Assembly (NCBI GenBank): GCA_017521405.1
Contig: JAFXCP010000026.1
Location: 1-41,216 of the forward strand
DNA from: Akkermansia sp.
GTDB lineage: Bacteria > Verrucomicrobiota > Verrucomicrobiia > Verrucomicrobiales > Akkermansiaceae
DNA: 41,216 bases
Direction: 5' to 3'
Shown here: piece after piece, positions 3,813 through 41,216 of the stretch
How the letters are laid out: each line of letters starts with the position of its first letter
Numbering within the stretch: position 1 is the stretch's first letter
The notes under the pieces: generated by a model
The model's database searches: none
What the model saw: only the letters and a program-made list of their open reading frames with translations
What the model was told of the DNA's origin: nothing
Program-made: the position numbers and the translations under genes

Positions 3813-6341
3813 TTAAGCGCCGATTTTTTCCGGAGCTTCACCCGTGCGGACATCACGTCCGGAAGGATCCACCACATCCACCTTAATGAATACGATGTAC
3901 GCCTTGCGTATCATATCCTCGCCTTCGGAGCGGAAGAGGCGCCCCACCATCGGCAAATCTCCCAGCACGGGCAGTTTGTCCTCATAACGTACCTTGCGAG
4001 CCTCCTTTAAACCACCCATGACGATGACGGCCCCGGGGGCAATCGTCACCTTGGTATGCTCCATGCGGCGCTTAAATACAGGCTTGAGGATGTAGTTCTT
4101 CGTAAGAGTCATGAATTCGCTCTTCTGCCCGGTAGTCACCATACCTTGGATGGGGGCACCCCAGTTCACAAAGCCTTCAAACTCATTGGTTGTCATGGAG
4201 AGCGTCATGGTGACATGCTGGTCATCCGGGGCGACTTGGGCACTATGCACCTGCAACACGGCACCAATGCCATTGGCGGCCTCCTCCGTGGGAGCATAGC
4301 GGGTGAAAGCATCCGGATGTGCAGGGCTTGCAATGATGGCGTTACCGTAGCGGTCATCATCGCCATCGTCATCCCAGTCATGATCAACAGAGCGATACGC
4401 AGGACCATCGCCCGGCAGGAAGAAGCTCATGCTTTGGATTTGCGGCTCCGTGTAGCTTTCCGGGTAGAAGAGTTCCTTTATATTATAGAAAGTAACCTGC
4501 TCTTCCCGACCGGGGCTAAACACTAAGCGGGGGTTGAAAAGAATATCCACGCCTTTTTTCTGGGAGGCGCCGCGCATGACCATGCTCATATCGCCAAACT
4601 TCCAGATACCACGGAAGCCGAAGATACCCGGGGCCTTCTGTCCGCCGGATGCAGCGTTGAAGGCATCTGCCCGTCCATTGCGAATGAGCGTATCCATATT
4701 ATCGGCAGAGAGTACGGAGGAACCGCTGCGAAGACCGCCTGTCACCAAACCCGTTTGGGTGGGGTCTCCATAGCTCGTGGTGACCACAGGTATGCCGATG
4801 GCATCCGAAACGGCTTGCTCGCCGCCCGCGCCATAGAAGGAGGGTCCCAGTTTGAAGTTGAACATCCATTCGAAGCCGAGTTCTTCGAGCGTTTCTTCTT
4901 CCACCTCCATGGCAATCACATTGAGCACCAGAGAGCGGTCCGTGCTGATAGGCACACTCACCAGCCCCTCAATTTCCTGATGATTGTACATGGTATTACG
5001 CACCTTGAGCTGGCGGCTTTGAGCATCGTAGCGGGCGGAAGCTCCCTCCGGGAAGGAGATACCCATTTCCTTAAGGCGCTCCACAGGGTTGACACGAGTT
5101 ACCACCATGCGGGAGGAAGAGCCGGAGAAATCGCTTTCCTCATCATCGTATTCATCTTCCTCCTCGCCGGAGGATTTTTCTGCATCGAAGAAGTGGGGCG
5201 GCACCGTGTAAATGCGGTCTACGAGCGGACCGAAGTCTTTACCGGAGTAGGAAAGTTCCACCCCCATGGGGGTGACGTAGTACGAAATATCCAGCTGCCC
5301 GGAAAGCATATCCAGCAACTCGTACACGGAGACATCATTCAGTTTGAGATTCAAACGGCGGCTCATCACTTCCTTGTAGGAAGGAGAATCCGGTGTGCCA
5401 AAGCGTGTGACGATGTTAATGGTACGCCCGGCATTGATACCCTGATTCTCGAAACGGCGCACCTGCCCCTGCAATGCCTCCACCACTTCCGTAATGGAAG
5501 CATCGGAAAATTCAATCTGCGGCAGGGTCATCCGCTTCAGGGCATCGGCAATGGAGTTTTCCATCTCCGCATTTTCATGCACGACACCACCGGCTTCGGT
5601 AGTCTGCACATCCGCCCGGGGTTCCTCTGCGGGCAAGGGTTCCTCCCATGTGGCATCCACCTCTGCCAGCATGCGCGCCCGGGCACTATCCCGAGCAGAA
5701 GCGTAATAAGCACGCTCGCGCTTGCGGGCAGCCTCCAGCCCACGCTGAGCCGCCACATTGTACGCATCCGCCCGGAGAACATCTTTGAAAGTCTGCTCCG
5801 CCTCATCGTATTTTCCCAAATCCAGCGCACCATAACCAAGAGTGAGCAGGCGGTTTACCTCCTCCACCTTGCCGATATGCTCCGGAGTGAGAGCCGGGTT
5901 ATGACGCAGAACATCCTGCGTGCGCGCCAATTCGGCAGCAGCCCGCTTGCCGGAGGGATCCAACTCTGCGGCTTCCTTGAAGAATGAGACGGCCTCATCG
6001 TAACGGCCAACGGTGCGATAATCCATACCCTTGGCAATCAAGGCATCTGCCAAGCTCTGGCGAATGAACTGCACCTGCTTTTCCGTAGCCGAAGCTTTAG
6101 GCACCACGGACAAGGCATTGCGGTAATGCTCCACGGCCTCACTGTATCTGGCGGCAGAGTATGCCGTGCGCCCCATTTGCACTTGCTGCATAGCATCGCG
6201 CAGGGCTTGCTGGCGGCGGGCAACCTCCTGTACTGCCAAAGAGGAATTCCCGGTCTCTTGTGCTGCCAGTTGGGGAGAGAGGGACAGCGCAGCAGAGGCC
6301 ACCATGGAAAAGAGTACAGTGCGTGGTAAAAAACTCTTCAT
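3813..6341 (-). CDS. TPR-bearing secretin, Amuc_1098-like type IV pilus/type II secretion outer-membrane protein
   Basis: The frame is open to a GTG at 6383, but the ATG at 6341 gives a clean signal peptide (MKSFLPRTVLFSMVASAALS, cleaved after AAQ), so I use 6341 (842 residues). Residues about 50-205 form TPR-like helices. Residues about 275-365 resemble an N0/STN secretin module, with DVSVYELLDMLSGQLDISYYV. An acidic linker (EEEDEYDDEESD) follows. The C-terminal third is a secretin domain with the diagnostic IVMGGLKE, DKLPVLGDLPMVGRLF and IVFIKVDVVDP blocks. Secretins form gated rings in the outer membrane through which pili or substrates pass. No ATPase, PilM-like or pilin gene is seen in the window, so the rest of the machine is elsewhere. 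The name Amuc_1098-like is from recall of the Akkermansia family with this architecture. Confidence 0.88.
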   Translation of the reverse strand: MKSFLPRTVLFSMVASAALSLSPQLAAQETGNSSLAVQEVARRQQALRDAMQQVQMGRTAYSAARYSEAVEHYRNALSVVPKASATEKQVQFIRQSLADALIAKGMDYRTVGRYDEAVSFFKEAAELDPSGKRAAAELARTQDVLRHNPALTPEHIGKVEEVNRLLTLGYGALDLGKYDEAEQTFKDVLRADAYNVAAQRGLEAARKRERAYYASARDSARARMLAEVDATWEEPLPAEEPRADVQTTEAGGVVHENAEMENSIADALKRMTLPQIEFSDASITEVVEALQGQVRRFENQGINAGRTINIVTRFGTPDSPSYKEVMSRRLNLKLNDVSVYELLDMLSGQLDISYYVTPMGVELSYSGKDFGPLVDRIYTVPPHFFDAEKSSGEEEDEYDDEESDFSGSSSRMVVTRVNPVERLKEMGISFPEGASARYDAQSRQLKVRNTMYNHQEIEGLVSVPISTDRSLVLNVIAMEVEEETLEELGFEWMFNFKLGPSFYGAGGEQAVSDAIGIPVVTTSYGDPTQTGLVTGGLRSGSSVLSADNMDTLIRNGRADAFNAASGGQKAPGIFGFRGIWKFGDMSMVMRGASQKKGVDILFNPRLVFSPGREEQVTFYNIKELFYPESYTEPQIQSMSFFLPGDGPAYRSVDHDWDDDGDDDRYGNAIIASPAHPDAFTRYAPTEEAANGIGAVLQVHSAQVAPDDQHVTMTLSMTTNEFEGFVNWGAPIQGMVTTGQKSEFMTLTKNYILKPVFKRRMEHTKVTIAPGAVIVMGGLKEARKVRYEDKLPVLGDLPMVGRLFRSEGEDMIRKAYIVFIKVDVVDPSGRDVRTGEAPEKIGA

Positions 6342-18863: not shown

Positions 18864-19550
18864 ATGAATCTCCACACAACTGCTCTGGCTATACTCCTCG
18901 CCGGCTTTTCCTTTGCAGCCGCCGCTGAGACGATTGTTGACCCCTCCACCATTACGGATGGAAAAATTTACGTACCGGCTGGTCAGACGGTACGCATTGA
19001 TGTTCCTGCTGGTGACACGCTGAACATTTCCGGCATTCACATTGTCGACCCCACCTCCACCACGGCACTTAACATTGTGCTTTCCAGACAAGAAACGGAA
19101 GGCAGTATGGACTTTGGCGACCTCTTCCCCGGTTTGGGCGGCGATGGTTTTGAAGTATCCGGAGGCGAGGATTCCCCCCTCTACGAAGATACCAGCTTCA
19201 TCAGCTTCAGCGATGACTTCAAGTTCACAGTGGAGTTGACGGACGATTTCCTGAAGGAAGGCGCCCGAGAGGACTTTATTTTCTCCCTTGTTTCCTTTGA
19301 AAGCTGCCAGTTCGGAAAATACTGGACGGAGGAAAATACCACCATGATGGATTATGTTGAATTCATCACCGAACGCGGTGAATTGATTGATGTTACAGTT
19401 GATAATACGCGAGAGGATGTTCGCCTTAATGAAGGTGTAGCCTATGGTTTACAAGTGGACATCCCCGACATGAACGTTGTACCCGAGCCCGCCACGGCAA
19501 CACTGAGTCTTCTGGCACTTGCCGGTCTGGCCACTCGCCGCCGCCGCTAA
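18864..19550 (+). CDS. Secreted PEP-CTERM-tailed protein, function unknown
   Basis: A 228-residue protein starting with a signal peptide (MNLHTTALAILLAGFSFAAA) and ending with a PEP-CTERM-type sorting tail: VPEPATATLSLL, a short hydrophobic helix and four Arg. In the known system exosortase recognises PEP and cleaves before the helix, anchoring or releasing the protein at the surface; no exosortase gene is present here. The middle is acidic, low in Cys, and has no recognised domain. An in-frame ATG at 18774 lies right after the -10 box and would precede the signal peptide, so 18864 is preferred. The gene has its own promoter and a strong terminator. Confidence 0.8.
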   Translation: MNLHTTALAILLAGFSFAAAAETIVDPSTITDGKIYVPAGQTVRIDVPAGDTLNISGIHIVDPTSTTALNIVLSRQETEGSMDFGDLFPGLGGDGFEVSGGEDSPLYEDTSFISFSDDFKFTVELTDDFLKEGAREDFIFSLVSFESCQFGKYWTEENTTMMDYVEFITERGELIDVTVDNTREDVRLNEGVAYGLQVDIPDMNVVPEPATATLSLLALAGLATRRRR

Positions 19551-21724: not shown

Positions 21725-23260
21725 TTAGCGGCGGCGGCGGCGAGCAGCCAAAGCCGCAAGAGAAAGCAGGCTCAGGGTAGCTGTGGCCGGCTCCGGCACT
21801 GCCGTCACAAGCACATTGGCCTGCAGCTTCCCGGATTCTTCATCCACGCTCAATCCCAGAGACTCTATGCTGACACTCTCCGCCGTGGCACGCCTCAACA
21901 GACTGAAGGTGGCTACCGAGTTATCCACCAAAGTCAGGGTGAGAGAATCGCTCTCCACCAAGCTCTTCAGCTCCTGAACATCAGCATCGGAAAGGTTTGT
22001 AATCAAATCGATGGTGTAGCGAGCACCTTCGATGGTGGCTTCCGTCTGCATCTGCTGGCGCAGCGTGTCTCCGAAAATCAGCACCACTTCGGCACCACCT
22101 TCAAAGGCCAAATCGCCCGTGGCAGCCATTTCCAAAGCAGGCACATCCATGCTGTCCATGGTGAAATTCAAACTGGCGGCATCACTCAGCGTCAGGCTGC
22201 CGGAAACACTCATCGCAGCCTTCGAGGAACCGGTTGTATTCAAGCTGAGGGAATCGGTGGAGCAGCTGGCACCGCTGCCCAACTCAACGGTGCTGTTACC
22301 ATTGGTCTGTTCAATGTTGATTACCGCTCCGCTATTCTCTTTGAGAATGAGCTTACCCGTACCCTCTTGGGAGATGTTGTAAACGCCGTTCGTCGTCTTT
22401 TGCAGCTCAATGGTACCGGCACCACGCTGGGTCACATTAATAGCAATGCTGCTGCTTGCACACTGCAAGTTCCCAATCGTGAGCTTGGTATTTTGGTCGC
22501 CATCCTGCACGATGGAGGTTGTACCGGAACCCGCGTTGTTAATCTTCAGCGTATCACGGAAATTCATCGTACCACCCGTCTGGGTAATAGAGAAGCCCTT
22601 ATTAGTAAGAGAATAGCCATATACGTTCATTGTACCCGCACGCTGAGTAATGGCGGAACCCTTCGACAAAAAGCCGGAGGCAAATACATTCATGAAGTGA
22701 CTTTCGTTCAACTGTGCGCCGGTAGTCCCCATGGACAAATACCCACCATCCAGAATCAGCTCCTTCGTAATCTTAGCCTGCTTCTCGTTGCTGAAAGTAA
22801 TATAACTATTACCGGAGGTATACGAACCATGCAGCTCTACACGGCCACTCTTAAGATGCAGCGTTTCAATGTTCGCCATCGTGGAAATCAGATTCACACC
22901 GGAGGAACTATCCGCATCCACCGTCACCGTCTTAGCCTGCAAGCCCATATATTTGGAGCTATTCTGCCCACCAAGAGCAATCTGCCCGGTACCGTTGATA
23001 TACACATTCCCCGTAACGGTGAGAGAGTTCGTGGGGGTACCAAAAGAAGTTACCAGTTTATTATTGGCATCAAAAGCACCCACCTTATCCCCGCTGTTCA
23101 CCGTCAAATCCCCGGAGATGGTTTGTGTAGTATTGCCAAAACCCACATTGGTATATGTGGCACCATTGACTGTTTCTGTCGTAACGGCAGCCTGTACCAT
23201 CCCCAGACCAAACAGGACAAGCAATACCGAATGCAATGTTTTATTCAAATGTAATTTCAT
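21725..23260 (-). CDS. PEP-CTERM-tailed, beta-helix/autotransporter-like surface protein
   Basis: From the ATG at 23260 the 511-residue protein begins MKLHLNKTLHSVLLVLFGLG (signal peptide, cleaved after VQA) and ends with VPEPATATLSLL, a hydrophobic helix and five Arg. The body is rich in Gly, Thr, Ser and Asn with strand-turn repeats such as TQRAGTMNVYGY, TQTGGTMNFRD, TQRGAGTIELQ and SQEGTGKLILKE, as in right-handed beta-helix passenger domains. No autotransporter barrel is present, so surface retention would depend on the tail. Its first five residues MKLHL equal those of the Pmp-like protein at 37327. The upstream region carries direct repeats and a palindrome. Ligand or enzymatic role is unknown. 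Confidence 0.82.
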   Translation of the reverse strand: MKLHLNKTLHSVLLVLFGLGMVQAAVTTETVNGATYTNVGFGNTTQTISGDLTVNSGDKVGAFDANNKLVTSFGTPTNSLTVTGNVYINGTGQIALGGQNSSKYMGLQAKTVTVDADSSSGVNLISTMANIETLHLKSGRVELHGSYTSGNSYITFSNEKQAKITKELILDGGYLSMGTTGAQLNESHFMNVFASGFLSKGSAITQRAGTMNVYGYSLTNKGFSITQTGGTMNFRDTLKINNAGSGTTSIVQDGDQNTKLTIGNLQCASSSIAINVTQRGAGTIELQKTTNGVYNISQEGTGKLILKENSGAVINIEQTNGNSTVELGSGASCSTDSLSLNTTGSSKAAMSVSGSLTLSDAASLNFTMDSMDVPALEMAATGDLAFEGGAEVVLIFGDTLRQQMQTEATIEGARYTIDLITNLSDADVQELKSLVESDSLTLTLVDNSVATFSLLRRATAESVSIESLGLSVDEESGKLQANVLVTAVPEPATATLSLLSLAALAARRRRR

Positions 23261-37005: not shown

Positions 37006-37121
37006 CATCTACTCAACGCCAAAACGCCTCCGCGCTCCGCAACCGCCCGCTCAAAACACACCGTCCGCTCCTGCAGCTCCAGCGCCGCCGCCTCTTTCTT
37101 GCTCACTTTCATCTTCTTCAT
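37005..37121 (-). CDS. Possible small ORF or gene remnant (38 residues)
   Basis: The minus-strand frame ATG 37121 to TGA 37005-37007 encodes MKKMKVSKKEAAALELQERT and 18 more residues (charged, helix-forming, no signal). A GGAAG motif lies only 2 nt before the ATG. The stretch is much richer in G+C than the surrounding AT-rich region, as coding DNA here usually is, so it may be a gene fragment. I recognise no family. The rest of the 383-nt gap 36944-37326 holds the terminator, the palindrome at 37174-37189, short direct repeats and the promoter of the next gene. Confidence 0.25.
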   Translation of the reverse strand: MKKMKVSKKEAAALELQERTVCFERAVAERGGVLALSR

Positions 37122-37138: not shown

Positions 37139-37155
37139 GCTGTTTCTAAAACCGC
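37139..37155 (+). repeat. 17-bp direct repeat, upstream copy
   Basis: Matches 37295-37311 at 14 of 17 positions (GCTGTTT, three differing bases, AAACCGC). The downstream copy fills exactly the -35 to -10 spacer of the Pmp-like gene promoter. Confidence 0.45.
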
Positions 37156-37173
37156 AAGAATACTTTCTTAACA

Positions 37174-37189
37174 CTAAGGTATACCTCAG
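37174..37189. promoter_or_regulatory. 16-bp palindrome upstream of the Pmp-like gene
   Basis: CTAAGGTATACCTCAG reads the same on both strands except for one pair. It lies 100 nt upstream of the -35 box, within an AT-rich region, and is a candidate regulator site. Confidence 0.4.
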
Positions 37190-37288
37190 CTTGCATTTTC
37201 TTTTTCAAAGCACATGTGATTTTTTTGCCCATGGGTGAAAAATATAACTCTCTTACATCTCAGTATTGCTTTTTCCCATCTTTCGTGC

Positions 37289-37317
37289 TTGACGGCTGTT
37301 TTAGAAACCGCTAGTCT
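37289..37317 (+). promoter_or_regulatory. Promoter of the Pmp-like gene
   Basis: TTGACG at 37289-37294, 17-nt spacer, TAGTCT at 37312-37317. The ATG at 37327 lies 9 nt after the -10 box; the in-frame ATG at 37318 would be upstream of the predicted start. The -10 is weak (3 of 6). Confidence 0.45.
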
Positions 37318-37326
37318 ATGGGCAGC

Positions 37327-40300
37327 ATGAAACTACACCTTCCTACGCATTTATTCCGTGCTGTCATCGCTTTGATAGTGACTCTGTCCTCTACGCTGCA
37401 TGCAGAGTATACCATCCCCACCGAGATTGTCATTCCGGAATATTATTCAGTAAGACAACTTGTTTTTACCCTCGATGACATTATCACTCACACCTCATCC
37501 TCATCCAATGTAGCATTGCGGCTGATTAATGATTTGGAAATTAGCGGCTTGAATGATGCTCTGATGAAATCCGATTCTGGGTCTCGCCATTTTTCCAGTT
37601 TTTCATCGGATTATCTCTGTTCTTTGAGATTTAAGGATAACACCTTCAGCCTTTTTTGTGTAAACGTTGGTGAAAATATTGAGTTCTCCGCTCTTTGTGA
37701 TTTGAGCTTCATCGGGAACTTGTCGACTCGCTTTGATAACGGCGGCGCGATTTATGGGGGCTCCGACAGCACCATTGCACTGAGTAATAACGGCACGGTG
37801 AGCTTCAGCGGGAATGAGGCTGGTAACGGCGGCGCGATTTATGGGGATAGCGACAGTACTACCACGCTGAACGACAACGGCACGGTGATTTTCAGTGGAA
37901 ACACTGCTTCCGATGGCAACGGCGGCGCAATTGGTGGTGGCTCCATTATACTGAGTAACAACGGTACGGTGACCTTCAACGAGAACAAGGCTTCCGAGGA
38001 CGACAGCGTCAGGAGATACAGCTACGGCGGCGCAATTTCCGGCAGCACCGTCACGCTGCTTGATAATGACACGGTAACTTTCAGCAAGAATTCGATTTAC
38101 GGCTACGGTGGTGCAATTTATGGGAGCTCCATTACGCTGAGCAACAATGGCGAAGTTTCCTTCAAAGGGAACTCGGCTTCAGGATCTTACAGTTACTACT
38201 CTAGTCAGGGCGGCGCGATTTATGGGGATAGAGACAGTACCATTGTGCTGAACAACAACGACACAGTGATTTTCAGTGAGAATACGGTTTCCGTTGGTGC
38301 CGGCGGTGCAATTTCCGGCGGCACCGTAACGCTGAGTAAGAATGGCATGGTAATCTTTAGCAAAAATGAGGCCTTTCATAAAGTCGGTACCACCTACGGC
38401 GGCGCGATTATCGGCGATGCCATTACGCTAAATGAGAATGGTACGGTGACTTTCAGCGAGAACTCGACTTTTGGCTACGGTGGCGCGATTTATGGGGGTG
38501 GTAACGGCACTATCTCGCTTAACAATAACGGCGAGGTGACATTCAACGGGAACGCCGTTTCCGGCTCATCCGCTTACAGCAACAGCGGCAGTGGCGGTGC
38601 GATTTATGGGGGGAGCATCACGCTGAACGTCAACGACACGGTGAGCTTCAGCGGGAACTCGGCGTACTACATCGGTGGCGCGATTCGTGGCAGCACCATC
38701 ACGCTGAGCGACAACGGCACGGTGAGCTTCAGCGGGAACTCGGCTCGCTACGGTGGTGCGATTTATGGGGGGAGCAACGCCACTATCTCGCTGAATAACA
38801 ACGGCGAGGTGACCTTTGGCGAGAACACGGCTACCTCCGGCGGGAAAGGGGCTGCCGACGGCGGCGCGATTTCTGGAGGCAGCTACAGCACCATCACGCT
38901 GAGCGATAACGGCATGGTGAGCTTCATCGGGAACTCGGCTACCTCCGGCGGGAATGGGGCTTCCTACGGCGGCGCGATTTATGGAGGCAGCTACAGCACC
39001 ATCACGCTGCGCAACAACAATACGGTGAACTTCAGCGGGAACACGGCTGAGGACTCTGACGACGCCTACGGCGGCGCGATTAAAGGTAGCGCCATCACGC
39101 TGAGCGACAACGGCACGGTGAGCTTCAGCGGGAATGAGGCTTCCGGCACTTTCTACGCCTACGGCGGCGCGATTGAAGGTAGCACCATCACGCTGAGCAA
39201 CAACGGCACGGTGACCTTCAGTGGGAACTCGGCTTCCTGCTCTTACGGCGGTTACGGTGGCGCGATTCGTGGCAGCACCATCACGCTGAGCAACAACGAC
39301 ACGGTGAGCTTCAGCGGGAATGAGGCTGCCTACGGCGGCGCGATTTCTGGAGGCAACTACAGCACCATCACGCTGAGCGACAACGGCACGGTGAGCTTCA
39401 CCGGGAACACGGCTACCTCCGGCGGGAAAGGGGCTTCCTACGGCGGCGCGATTGAAGGTAGAACCATCACGCTGAACAACAACAATACGGTGACCTTCAG
39501 CGGGAACACAGCTTCCAGAGACAATGGCGGTGCGATTTATGGGTACGATGGAAGCAGCATCACGCTGAGAAACAACAGCGAGGTAACCTTCAGCGAGAAC
39601 TCGGCTTCCAATGCTTCCAATGCCAGTGGCGGCGCGATTTGTGGGAGTACCATCACGCTGAGCGATAACGGCATGGTGAGCTTCATCGGGAACACGGCTT
39701 CCAGAGGCGGCGGCGCGATTTCCGGGAACACCACGCTGAGCAATAACAATACGGTGAGCTTCATCGGGAACACGGCTTCCGCAAAATCATATATCGGCTC
39801 CGGTGGTGCGATTTCCGGGAAAACCACGCTGAGCGACAACGATACGGTGAGCTTCACCGGGAACACGGCTGATGACGCTGGCGGCGCGATTTATGGAGCC
39901 ACGACGCTGAGCAAGAACAATACGGTAACCTTCACCGGGAATGGGGCTTCCGACGGCGGCGCAATTTTCGGAAGCACGACGCTGAGCATCAATGGCACGG
40001 TGACTTTCAGCGGGAACACGGCTTCCGGCGACGGCGGCGCGTTTTTCGGAACCCGCATCACGCTGAGCGACAACGGCATGGTGACCTTCAGCGGGAACTC
40101 GGCTGGCTCCTACGGCGGCGCGATTTATGGGAATGGCACCACCACGCTGAGCAACAACGACACGGTGAGCTTCAGCGAGAACACGGCCGGATACGACGGC
40201 GGCGCAATTTATGGAGACACGACGCTGAGTAACAATGGCACGGTGACTTTCAGCGGGAACACGGCTGGATACGACGGCGGCGCGTTTTTCGGATCCAGCA

Positions 40301-41216
40301 TCACGCTGAGCGACAACGACACGGTGACTTTCAGCGGGAACACGGCTTCCTCCGGCGGCGCGATTTATTCTTCCGGCAATCTGCACATCCGCAACAACGA
40401 TTCCGTGGAATTTGCGGGGAACGTGGAGAAATCCGATTCCTCTTATCGTCTGCGGAGTATTTATGTATCCGGAGGCAGTGGAAATACCGTCTCTCTCTCG
40501 GCTGCAGCGGGGAAGAGCATTATTTTCCGGGATTCCATGTATATCGGCAGCGGTACCACGGTGGACTTTAATGCCGATTACACGGATGCAGAGGGGAATA
40601 TCCATGCACAGAAGGGCGATATTCTCTTTACCGGTGCGACCACGGATGCGGACTTGCTGGAGGCCAAGGGCAGTGCCGGCACGGCGGCGGAGCTTCTCAA
40701 CTCCCGCACCACGGAGGTGCTTGCGATGACGAATCTGTATGGCGGGCGCCTGCGTGTGGAGGATGGAGCGGTGTATCAAGGTCAAGGCATCACGGTACAC
40801 GAAGGTTCTGAAGCTATGGTGCGAGTAAAGGATGCCACGCTGAATCATGCCGGCTATGAAATCCTCTTCAACCACGGCACGAAGCTGGAAGTGGAGGGAA
40901 ACAGCAGCATTAGCGGTAGCATTGTGCTGAGGGGATATACATTGAGTGGTGGAATAACCATCAACCCCGGACTAGGTGGAATAATCATCGACCCCGGGCA
41001 TGAGGGTGAACTGTGGGATGATCCGTCCCTTCCCGGGGCATCGCTGGCACCGAAAGCACGCGGAGACCTTGCCGAAAGCAGCATTACGCTGACTCCCGCA
41101 GCGGAAATGAGTGTGAAGGGGAGCGTAACGCTGGATGGCGGGCTGAGCATTAGCTCCGGAAGCACGCCTGCCACGCTGCGAGGCGTAACGCTGGCTGATG
41201 GTAGTATTACGGGCAC
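37327..41216 (+). CDS. Pmp-like giant surface protein with 30 GGA(I)/FxxN repeats (3' end outside window)
   Basis: The frame is open from the ATG at 37327 to the window end: 1296 codons, no stop. MKLHLPTHLFRAVIALIVTL is a signal peptide (cleavage near LHA). Residues 30-138 are non-repetitive. From 37741 to about 40410 there are 30 units, each beginning GGAI (GGAF in two) and holding a strand pattern like ITLSNNGTVSFSGN, so an FxxN follows every GGA motif. Tandem GGA(I/L/V) and FxxN tetrapeptides define chlamydial polymorphic membrane proteins, whose passenger is a beta-helix adhesin. Residues about 1050-1110 (VSLSAAAGKSIIFRDSMYIG) resemble the Pmp middle region. An autotransporter barrel or PEP-CTERM tail would lie beyond the edge. 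Adhesion or surface display is inferred from the family. Confidence 0.88.
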   Translation, partial: MKLHLPTHLFRAVIALIVTLSSTLHAEYTIPTEIVIPEYYSVRQLVFTLDDIITHTSSSSNVALRLINDLEISGLNDALMKSDSGSRHFSSFSSDYLCSLRFKDNTFSLFCVNVGENIEFSALCDLSFIGNLSTRFDNGGAIYGGSDSTIALSNNGTVSFSGNEAGNGGAIYGDSDSTTTLNDNGTVIFSGNTASDGNGGAIGGGSIILSNNGTVTFNENKASEDDSVRRYSYGGAISGSTVTLLDNDTVTFSKNSIYGYGGAIYGSSITLSNNGEVSFKGNSASGSYSYYSSQGGAIYGDRDSTIVLNNNDTVIFSENTVSVGAGGAISGGTVTLSKNGMVIFSKNEAFHKVGTTYGGAIIGDAITLNENGTVTFSENSTFGYGGAIYGGGNGTISLNNNGEVTFNGNAVSGSSAYSNSGSGGAIYGGSITLNVNDTVSFSGNSAYYIGGAIRGSTITLSDNGTVSFSGNSARYGGAIYGGSNATISLNNNGEVTFGENTATSGGKGAADGGAISGGSYSTITLSDNGMVSFIGNSATSGGNGASYGGAIYGGSYSTITLRNNNTVNFSGNTAEDSDDAYGGAIKGSAITLSDNGTVSFSGNEASGTFYAYGGAIEGSTITLSNNGTVTFSGNSASCSYGGYGGAIRGSTITLSNNDTVSFSGNEAAYGGAISGGNYSTITLSDNGTVSFTGNTATSGGKGASYGGAIEGRTITLNNNNTVTFSGNTASRDNGGAIYGYDGSSITLRNNSEVTFSENSASNASNASGGAICGSTITLSDNGMVSFIGNTASRGGGAISGNTTLSNNNTVSFIGNTASAKSYIGSGGAISGKTTLSDNDTVSFTGNTADDAGGAIYGATTLSKNNTVTFTGNGASDGGAIFGSTTLSINGTVTFSGNTASGDGGAFFGTRITLSDNGMVTFSGNSAGSYGGAIYGNGTTTLSNNDTVSFSENTAGYDGGAIYGDTTLSNNGTVTFSGNTAGYDGGAFFGSSITLSDNDTVTFSGNTASSGGAIYSSGNLHIRNNDSVEFAGNVEKSDSSYRLRSIYVSGGSGNTVSLSAAAGKSIIFRDSMYIGSGTTVDFNADYTDAEGNIHAQKGDILFTGATTDADLLEAKGSAGTAAELLNSRTTEVLAMTNLYGGRLRVEDGAVYQGQGITVHEGSEAMVRVKDATLNHAGYEILFNHGTKLEVEGNSSISGSIVLRGYTLSGGITINPGLGGIIIDPGHEGELWDDPSLPGASLAPKARGDLAESSITLTPAAEMSVKGSVTLDGGLSISSGSTPATLRGVTLADGSITG
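37741..40410 (+). repeat. Array of 30 coding tandem repeats (75-113 bp units)
   Basis: Units start at the GGNGGNGCN codons at 37741, 37831, 37921, 38026, 38108 and on to 40276 and 40354 in one frame. Unit length varies because a Ser/Gly/Tyr-rich linker between FxxN and the next GGA varies. Units after 38700 are more alike at the DNA level than the earlier ones, suggesting recent expansion. Confidence 0.85.

Follow-up and report, generated by a model that had tools for sequence, protein, structure and literature searches.

A Pmp-repeat surface protein gene of Akkermansia, probably exosortase-anchored, behind a putative invertible promoter

Polymorphic membrane proteins (Pmps) have mostly been studied as chlamydial autotransporters, in which 75% of the paired GGA and FxxN motifs are spaced 14–18 residues apart (PMC11166332). 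The repeat itself is not new in Akkermansia, because a Pmp-like protein of this genus has already been published (PMC11166332), and PEP-CTERM proteins and invertons at surface genes have each been published for the genus as well. Here we describe a gene at the end of a 41,216-nucleotide contig of Akkermansia sp. (JAFXCP010000026.1 in assembly GCA_017521405.1), the whole of which, contig C21 in our numbering, is called the window. The gene encodes a Pmp-repeat protein, and in this genus of mucus-dwelling commensals the same passenger appears to be paired with another delivery system.

Invertons of A. muciniphila are the closest described switches. PEP-CTERM genes are enriched as regulatable genes in inverton group 138, whose repeat resembles the published motif, and an example of this group near autotransporter genes shifts orientation over mouse generations (PMC11892184). 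A switch with the published motif, CGGATT..AATCCG, adjoins the A. muciniphila capsule locus (PMC13343947, through which we cite Jiang 2019, where the motif was first given).

We read the window gene as belonging to a multi-copy cassette of Akkermansia that encodes a phase-variable, exosortase-anchored adhesin with Pmp repeats, at a probability of roughly 0.6. The signal peptide would export the product, whose fold would be an extended beta-helix of Pmp type resting on a Pmp-middle-like base. Delivery to the cell surface would depend on a C-terminal PEP-CTERM signal acted on by exosortase, not on a barrel of the protein's own. Inversion of a 139-bp promoter segment would switch the gene, with a divergently encoded tyrosine recombinase beside many copies as the likely invertase.

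The gene is truncated by the contig end. Its frame (37318-41214) has no stop up to that point and gives 1299 residues from an alternative ATG at 37318, or 1296 from the MKLHLP start, which resembles those of the family; leaders of the type M[KR][LP]HLP were common to the window gene and its paralogues when leaders were compared. The original prediction, made from the letters alone, was of a protein of at least 1296 residues that continues and has thirty in-frame units each with GGA(I/F) and FxxN, and so it proved. We counted 30 GGA[ILVF] (28 GGAI and 2 GGAF) and 33 FxxN, with an FxxN 12–23 residues after the GGA in 30/30 cases; the spacing was 14–18 in 25 of the 30 and 13 in five, to be compared with the 75% of chlamydial pairs at 14–18 (PMC11166332). 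A chance pile-up of motifs was rejected, since 1000 shuffles of the 891-residue array gave means of 0.5 GGA, 4.4 FxxN and 0.03 pairs, with maxima of 3, 12 and 2. The proposed Chlam_PMP search likewise bore out the prediction, at 222 bits over 29 stretches (PF02415, E 2.4e-69, cut-off 20.6), and TIGR01376 (POMP_repeat) matched 26 stretches at 332.8 bits (cut-off 15).

A structural model of 39739-40908 (390 residues, from 24 aligned sequences) was a beta-helix with mean pLDDT 95.5, and four predictors agree on the fold of PF02415 (PMC11795689). On this modelling we are confident that the passenger is beta-helical. A VIA structure search returned a broad range of beta-helical proteins without one close fold, the neighbours being adhesins and carbohydrate-active proteins. 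Foldseek alone gave no match to the model at E <= 0.001, and a sequence search of the PDB with the window protein gave none at E <= 1.

The protein is probably an adhesin that would bind host or mucus, and it is likely to work like a Pmp passenger. It might instead belong to a structural or protective surface layer, as an exopolysaccharide-associated scaffold or a phage decoy, switching to escape phage or immunity. We put this at somewhat worse than even odds: the carbohydrate-active structural neighbours would suit it, as would the link of exopolysaccharide to PEP-CTERM/exosortase systems (PMC3048395) and the MBOAT/DltB-like gene on C22, which has an inverton with this type of repeat ahead of it. 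Nothing speaks directly against it; chlamydial Pmps with the same repeat mediate adhesion (PMC2997323).

A Pmp-middle-like segment had also been predicted after the array. Tested directly, this did not hold: Pfam ChlamPMP_M (PF07548) had no match in the window protein at E <= 10, and its best match across this genome (9.4 bits) lay at a locus other than the window gene. A profile link did emerge. The profile of alignment A2, made of 17 post-array sequences (the window, eight paralogues and eight relatives), aligned in hhalign with a profile of seven related Akkermansia segments at 98% (E 2e-13), against 0.3% for a control with another region of the same kind of proteins, and some of these seven segments reach ChlamPMP_M. 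Related Akkermansia segments passed the ChlamPMP_M cut-off of 25 in 3/195 genomes, with 25.5, 26 and 25.1 bits when neighbours were included and 23.2, 23.3 and 22.4 bits for the stretch alone. The tie to the chlamydial middle domain is indirect because it appears to run through other Akkermansia proteins, which the window segment matches and which in turn reach ChlamPMP_M. The PDB returned weak Blc matches alone to the post-array profile. One scan of viral contigs with this one query found no relative, and a phage origin was rejected on that scan.

The likeness to chlamydial Pmps could be convergent, if any such beta-helix needs GGA and FxxN and this one was built independently in Akkermansia. 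The failure of ChlamPMP_M on the window protein is in its favour, and the PF02415 scan also gave a match in the E. coli control genome; the co-occurrence of repeat and post-array segment argues the other way, together with the profile-linked segments that reach the cut-off. We hold convergence possible but doubtful.

The anchor of the family could be read from its other members in this genome. Pmp-repeat frames lie on C2, C10, C11, C18, C20, C21 (the window), C27, C30 and C37, five of the nine being cut by a contig end (C2, C18, C21, C27 and C37), and five contigs (C3, C23, C26, C35 and C36) carry tail-only stubs at an end. In the genome scan PF07589 (PEP-CTERM) was above its cut-off in 11/11 family tails found (C2, C10, C11, C20, C30, C37, C3, C23, C26, C35 and C36). 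All four paralogues scanned individually matched as well (22.5, 21.3, 21.8 and 21.6 bits; C11 gave 21.4; cut-off 20.7), and the paralogue tails show a PEP motif, a hydrophobic stretch and an arginine-rich end. The genome has an exosortase gene (TIGR02602 116.7 bits, cut-off 105.55). The missing tail of the window protein is probably PEP-CTERM as well, because its last 279 residues align with paralogues that continue to PEP-CTERM (58% over 278 residues with C30, 57% with C11 and C2); the same residues match C10 at 78% over 207 residues. The window end had no exact suffix-prefix overlap of at least 10 bases with the five tail-only contig ends; the end of C18 overlaps C23 and C35 by 67 bases.

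The autotransporter barrel that the original prediction had proposed to look for (PF03797) was not among the paralogue tails of this genome: barrels lie at other loci, and PF02415 loci and barrel loci never coincide. With 11/11 family tails being PEP-CTERM, a barrel-ended Pmp was rejected as the default reading. That the window gene nevertheless encodes an ordinary type Va Pmp autotransporter, its missing C-terminus a beta-barrel, is very improbable given these tails and the alignment of its last 279 residues, in spite of the barrels found elsewhere. Among Pmp-repeat frames of this genome and the genus, 11 of 42 C-termini match PF03797, one relative (L162) is 62% identical to the window in repeat and post-array segment and ends in a 96.6-bit barrel, and A. 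glycaniphila has a protein of Pmp-like kind with a predicted barrel end (PMC11166332). The predicted chlamydial Pmp type stands for the repeats and the beta-helix. We would not class the gene as a Pmp autotransporter of the chlamydial type, since the middle domain was not detected directly and its paralogues end without a barrel. Two further PEP-CTERM signals above the Pfam cut-off lie in the window away from the PF02415 matches, at 21731-21802 (minus strand) and 19479-19544 (plus strand), in frames of 539 and 305 residues.

The putative switch lies directly upstream of the window gene (Table 1), where two intergenic inverted repeats with 17-bp arms stand 139 bp apart. Inversion would remove the -35 box, because the right site is the 17-bp spacer of the would-be promoter, with the -35 inside the segment and the -10 outside. 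The -10 is weak at the window and nearer consensus in C27, C30 and C11.

Table 1. Coordinates of features at the window gene, its upstream region and the window start
Feature	Position	Strand	Basis or remark
C-terminal part of another recombinase copy, cut by contig start	3..386	+	92% identity over 127 residues to C31 copy
Divergent tyrosine recombinase remnant	37013..37121	-	First codons, then deletion to last codons
Left inverted repeat GCTGTTTCTAAAACCGC (plus strand)	37139..37155	-	17-bp arm
Putative invertible promoter segment, 139 bp	37156..37294	.	Reverse-complemented upstream of paralogues C30 and C11
-35-like TTGACG, within segment	37289..37294	+	Comparison of paralogue upstreams
Right inverted repeat GCTGTTTTAGAAACCGC	37295..37311	+	Exactly fills 17-bp spacer of would-be promoter
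-10-like TAGTCT	37312..37317	+	Paralogues: TATCAT, TAGTAT, TATTAT, TAGCCT
Pmp-repeat surface protein	37327..41214	+	1296 residues from MKLHLP start; PF02415 222 bits, TIGR01376 332.8 bits
Signal peptide MKLHLPTHLFRAVIALIVTLSSTLHA	37327..37404	+	Read from translation; assigned, like its cleavage site, by eye
Array of 30 GGA(I/F)...FxxN units, predicted beta-helix coils	37741..40422	+	Residues 139-1032
Post-array Pmp-middle-like segment	40384..40893	+	Alignment A2; first residues overlap last array unit

Genome-wide, the 17-mer pattern with at most one mismatch gave 12 sites at seven loci, and a reversed control pattern gave eight matches. Six of the seven loci are upstream of Pmp genes (C10, C11, C18, C21, C27 and C30), so that the 17-mer precedes 6/7 Pmp-family genes with a 5′ end, the exception being C20. 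The segment lies one way in C21, C27, C10 and C18, with TTGAC abutting the repeat, and is reverse-complemented in C30, C11 and also C22. Aligned with the C21 segment, that of C30 scored 98 inverted and -11.5 direct, and that of C11 34 inverted and -7 direct; C18 is the weakest orientation call (16 direct against -7).

The seventh locus (L187, G000:C22) has an inverton of the same type at 278-451, upstream of an MBOAT/DltB-like acyltransferase gene that starts at 546, with a divergent recombinase N-terminus. MBOAT/DltB-like genes are of a kind that modifies surface polymers.

The tyrosine recombinase occurs in multiple copies. Its C31 copy (288 residues, N-terminus cut) scores 38.7 bits against PF00589; recombinase bodies lie at the ends of C20 (both), C31, C32 and C38 and at the window start, N-termini on C11 and C22, and remnants on C10 and in the window. 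The window contig has cassette repeats at both ends, the probable cause of the assembly break. Of 59 Pmp-repeat frames whose 5′ end is present, 24 (from 23 genes, one of which was entered twice) had a divergent copy or remnant at most 3 kb upstream, as did 19 of the 29 frames with an M[KR][LPI]HL leader; genes with PEP tails and genes with barrels were both among them. The 59 frames omit L156 and L170 (duplicates of L078 and L077), frames with many X, and L016, which fell below the motif threshold; one L079 gene was entered twice, and L012 was entered with a start upstream of its MKLHLP. Barrel and other labels in this count were assigned by regular expression, which missed some barrels, and Pfam labels come from separate scans. 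The recombinase is a candidate invertase for the Akkermansia invertons, the literature passages on which name none.

Relatives show the same layout with other repeats. Ruminant Akkermansia relatives have repeats of the CGCTTTCNNAATYCG type, which our CGGWTT-site pattern missed and a general inverted-repeat scan found. One of their segments (L164) aligned inverted with those of L152 and L155, at 109 and 73.5 inverted against -4.5 and -2.5 direct (shuffled maximum 9.0), and L155 and L164 come from the same metagenome-assembled genome (MAG; SIG73). The strict TTGAC-17mer-TAnnnT layout was found in 13/29 upstreams, four on and nine off. Among random 330-base windows 15/4993 had it, but by eye each of the 15 was placed either next to a recombinase copy or upstream of a Pmp-repeat gene, which makes them further instances of the feature and not a clean background. 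The general scan found arms in 17/26 upstreams against 25/282 random windows; the 26 are without L010 and L148 (short upstreams) and include both L077 and L170, which are duplicates, so that 16/25 are distinct, and at least two of the 17 (L074 and L173) look like chance. CGGATT..AATCCG pairs occurred in 14/43 other loci of the genus that were scanned, at least two of them (L088 and L090) kilobases from the Pmp-repeat gene.

Chlam_PMP matches were found in 41/195 genomes sampled from the family, covering 6/16 genera, and in 69/387 sampled from the phylum. A whole paralogue as query against genome contigs gave no match. The post-array profile found 29 loci in named genomes, 27 of them Akkermansia or Akkermansiaceae, one (L148) Oscillospiraceae and one (L167) an uncultured bacterium; for 23 of the 29, record titles give ruminant caecum, colon or rectum as the source. 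The L148 contig, from a MAG with the Oscillospiraceae title, holds a Pmp-repeat gene of Akkermansia type and was probably binned in error. Two of the 29 loci matched contigs of genome G124, a member of the window's genus, without a difference over the stretches compared, which gives the genus as Akkermansia. In the same phylum, G220 and G343 (family f22) gave 133 and 183 Chlam_PMP candidates in a first look, and the one complete tail examined by eye alongside them (L133) had neither a PEP-CTERM nor a barrel anchor.

Two anchors are in use among the relatives. The 42 C-termini from this genome and the genus, with families counted separately, comprise 26 PEP-CTERM and 11 PF03797 barrels (E <= 0.01). 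They are the 47 closed frames minus the L079 short fragment, L126, the second frame of L130, L133, L135, L136 and L137, plus L016 and L075; L092 to L095 had no frame above the motif threshold. By inspection, the tails of the 29 named loci are 21 PEP-type, two barrel-like (L162 and L176) and six cut, with Pfam scores of 96.6 and 51.8 bits bearing out the two barrels. The 62% identity of the barrel-ended L162 to the window covers the repeat and the post-array piece. In L079 (G150:C121) a single in-frame stop at 5546-5550 interrupts a barrel-ended Pmp-repeat gene.

From these comparisons we lean slightly towards a portable cassette of recombinase, switch and adhesin. Its beta-helical passenger of Pmp type would carry either a PEP-CTERM or a barrel tail, the 17-bp spacer would double as recombination site, and the copies would make up an on/off adhesin repertoire. 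The spacer sequence varies between lineages and the layout is constant, which suggests that recombinase and site evolve together.

Several observations weigh against our reading of the window gene. Its own tail falls past the contig end; TIGR02595 (the NCBIfam PEP_CTERM model) scores the four paralogues at 15.2–15.7, less than 1 bit below its cut-off of 16; the PEP tail of L158 has 18.2 bits against the Pfam cut-off of 20.7; and the barrel protein on C18 (L126, 1763 residues) passes a loose motif count (3 and 9) without a PF02415 match. As to switching, the window's divergent recombinase copy is broken, with only its first and last codons kept, and 35/59 frames have no divergent recombinase in reach (11/59 have less than 1500 bases upstream). 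At C20 both the repeat and the recombinase are lacking. C27 and C18, whose far repeat has diverged or was not found, are among the 16/29 upstreams without the strict layout, a group that takes in diverged repeats as well as loci with none. A sigma-70 scan of the window upstream gave no site above its threshold, and both segment orientations were seen, between paralogues and between relatives, in assembled contigs rather than reads.

The remnant recombinase, the diverged far repeats and the use of assembled contigs would also suit a fixed promoter architecture whose two orientations stem from past rearrangements, with no flipping now. We consider this unlikely. The paired arms are identical in C11 and differ by one base in C22 and C30, and orientation changes have been reported for A. 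muciniphila switches built alike (PMC11892184, PMC13343947). In addition, the contig end of C30 (L010, G000:C30, 7781-8009) runs past the far repeat and there repeats 39 bases of the start of its own gene without a mismatch; such a fold-back suggests mixed promoter orientations, from which it is expected, or a second divergent copy, which would also explain it. For the phase-variable cassette that we favour, the local recombinase being a deletion remnant means that copies elsewhere must act in trans, or else that the segment is by now locked in place.

Should the promoters invert, giant surface proteins of Akkermansia would vary in phase and in combination, which would bear on how strains differ in colonising and in binding mucus. 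Because the delivery system differs here and relatives have barrel-ended versions, passenger and anchor can be studied as separable modules. Our literature search, which covered few subscription papers, did not find the one-cassette combination, the alternative tails or the repeat-as-spacer layout, and found no joint mention of 'PEP-CTERM' and 'polymorphic membrane protein'; the word 'polymorphic' had 0 matches in each of the main texts of PMC4960237 and PMC3048395. We regard the cassette as known parts in a new combination.

Chlamydial Pmps (PF02415, PF07548, PF03797) share with the window family the paired GGA(I,L,V)/FxxN repeat, the beta-helix, a conserved post-array segment and a multi-copy family. 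Unlike them, the window family has 30 canonical units in one protein, PEP-CTERM paralogue tails, no direct ChlamPMP_M match, and an inverted-repeat promoter layout with a recombinase. The Pmp-like protein of A. glycaniphila (A0A1C7PBX1; PMC11166332) is alike in genus, repeat and many coils but has a predicted beta-barrel end, and the passages on it describe no switch or sorting signal. With the Akkermansia PEP-CTERM/exosortase substrates (PMC3048395, PMC4960237) the paralogues share the leader, PEP motif, hydrophobic stretch and arginine-rich end, and the genome the exosortase gene. The Akkermansia invertons (CGGATT..AATCCG; PMC11892184, PMC13343947) are alike in the 17-bp arms of the printed example, in similar spacing and in dyad build, whereas here the motif is CGGTTT..AAACCG, or CGCTTTCNNAATYCG-like in the ruminant relatives, the recombinase is divergent to its target in many copies, and the repeat lies exactly between -35 and -10.

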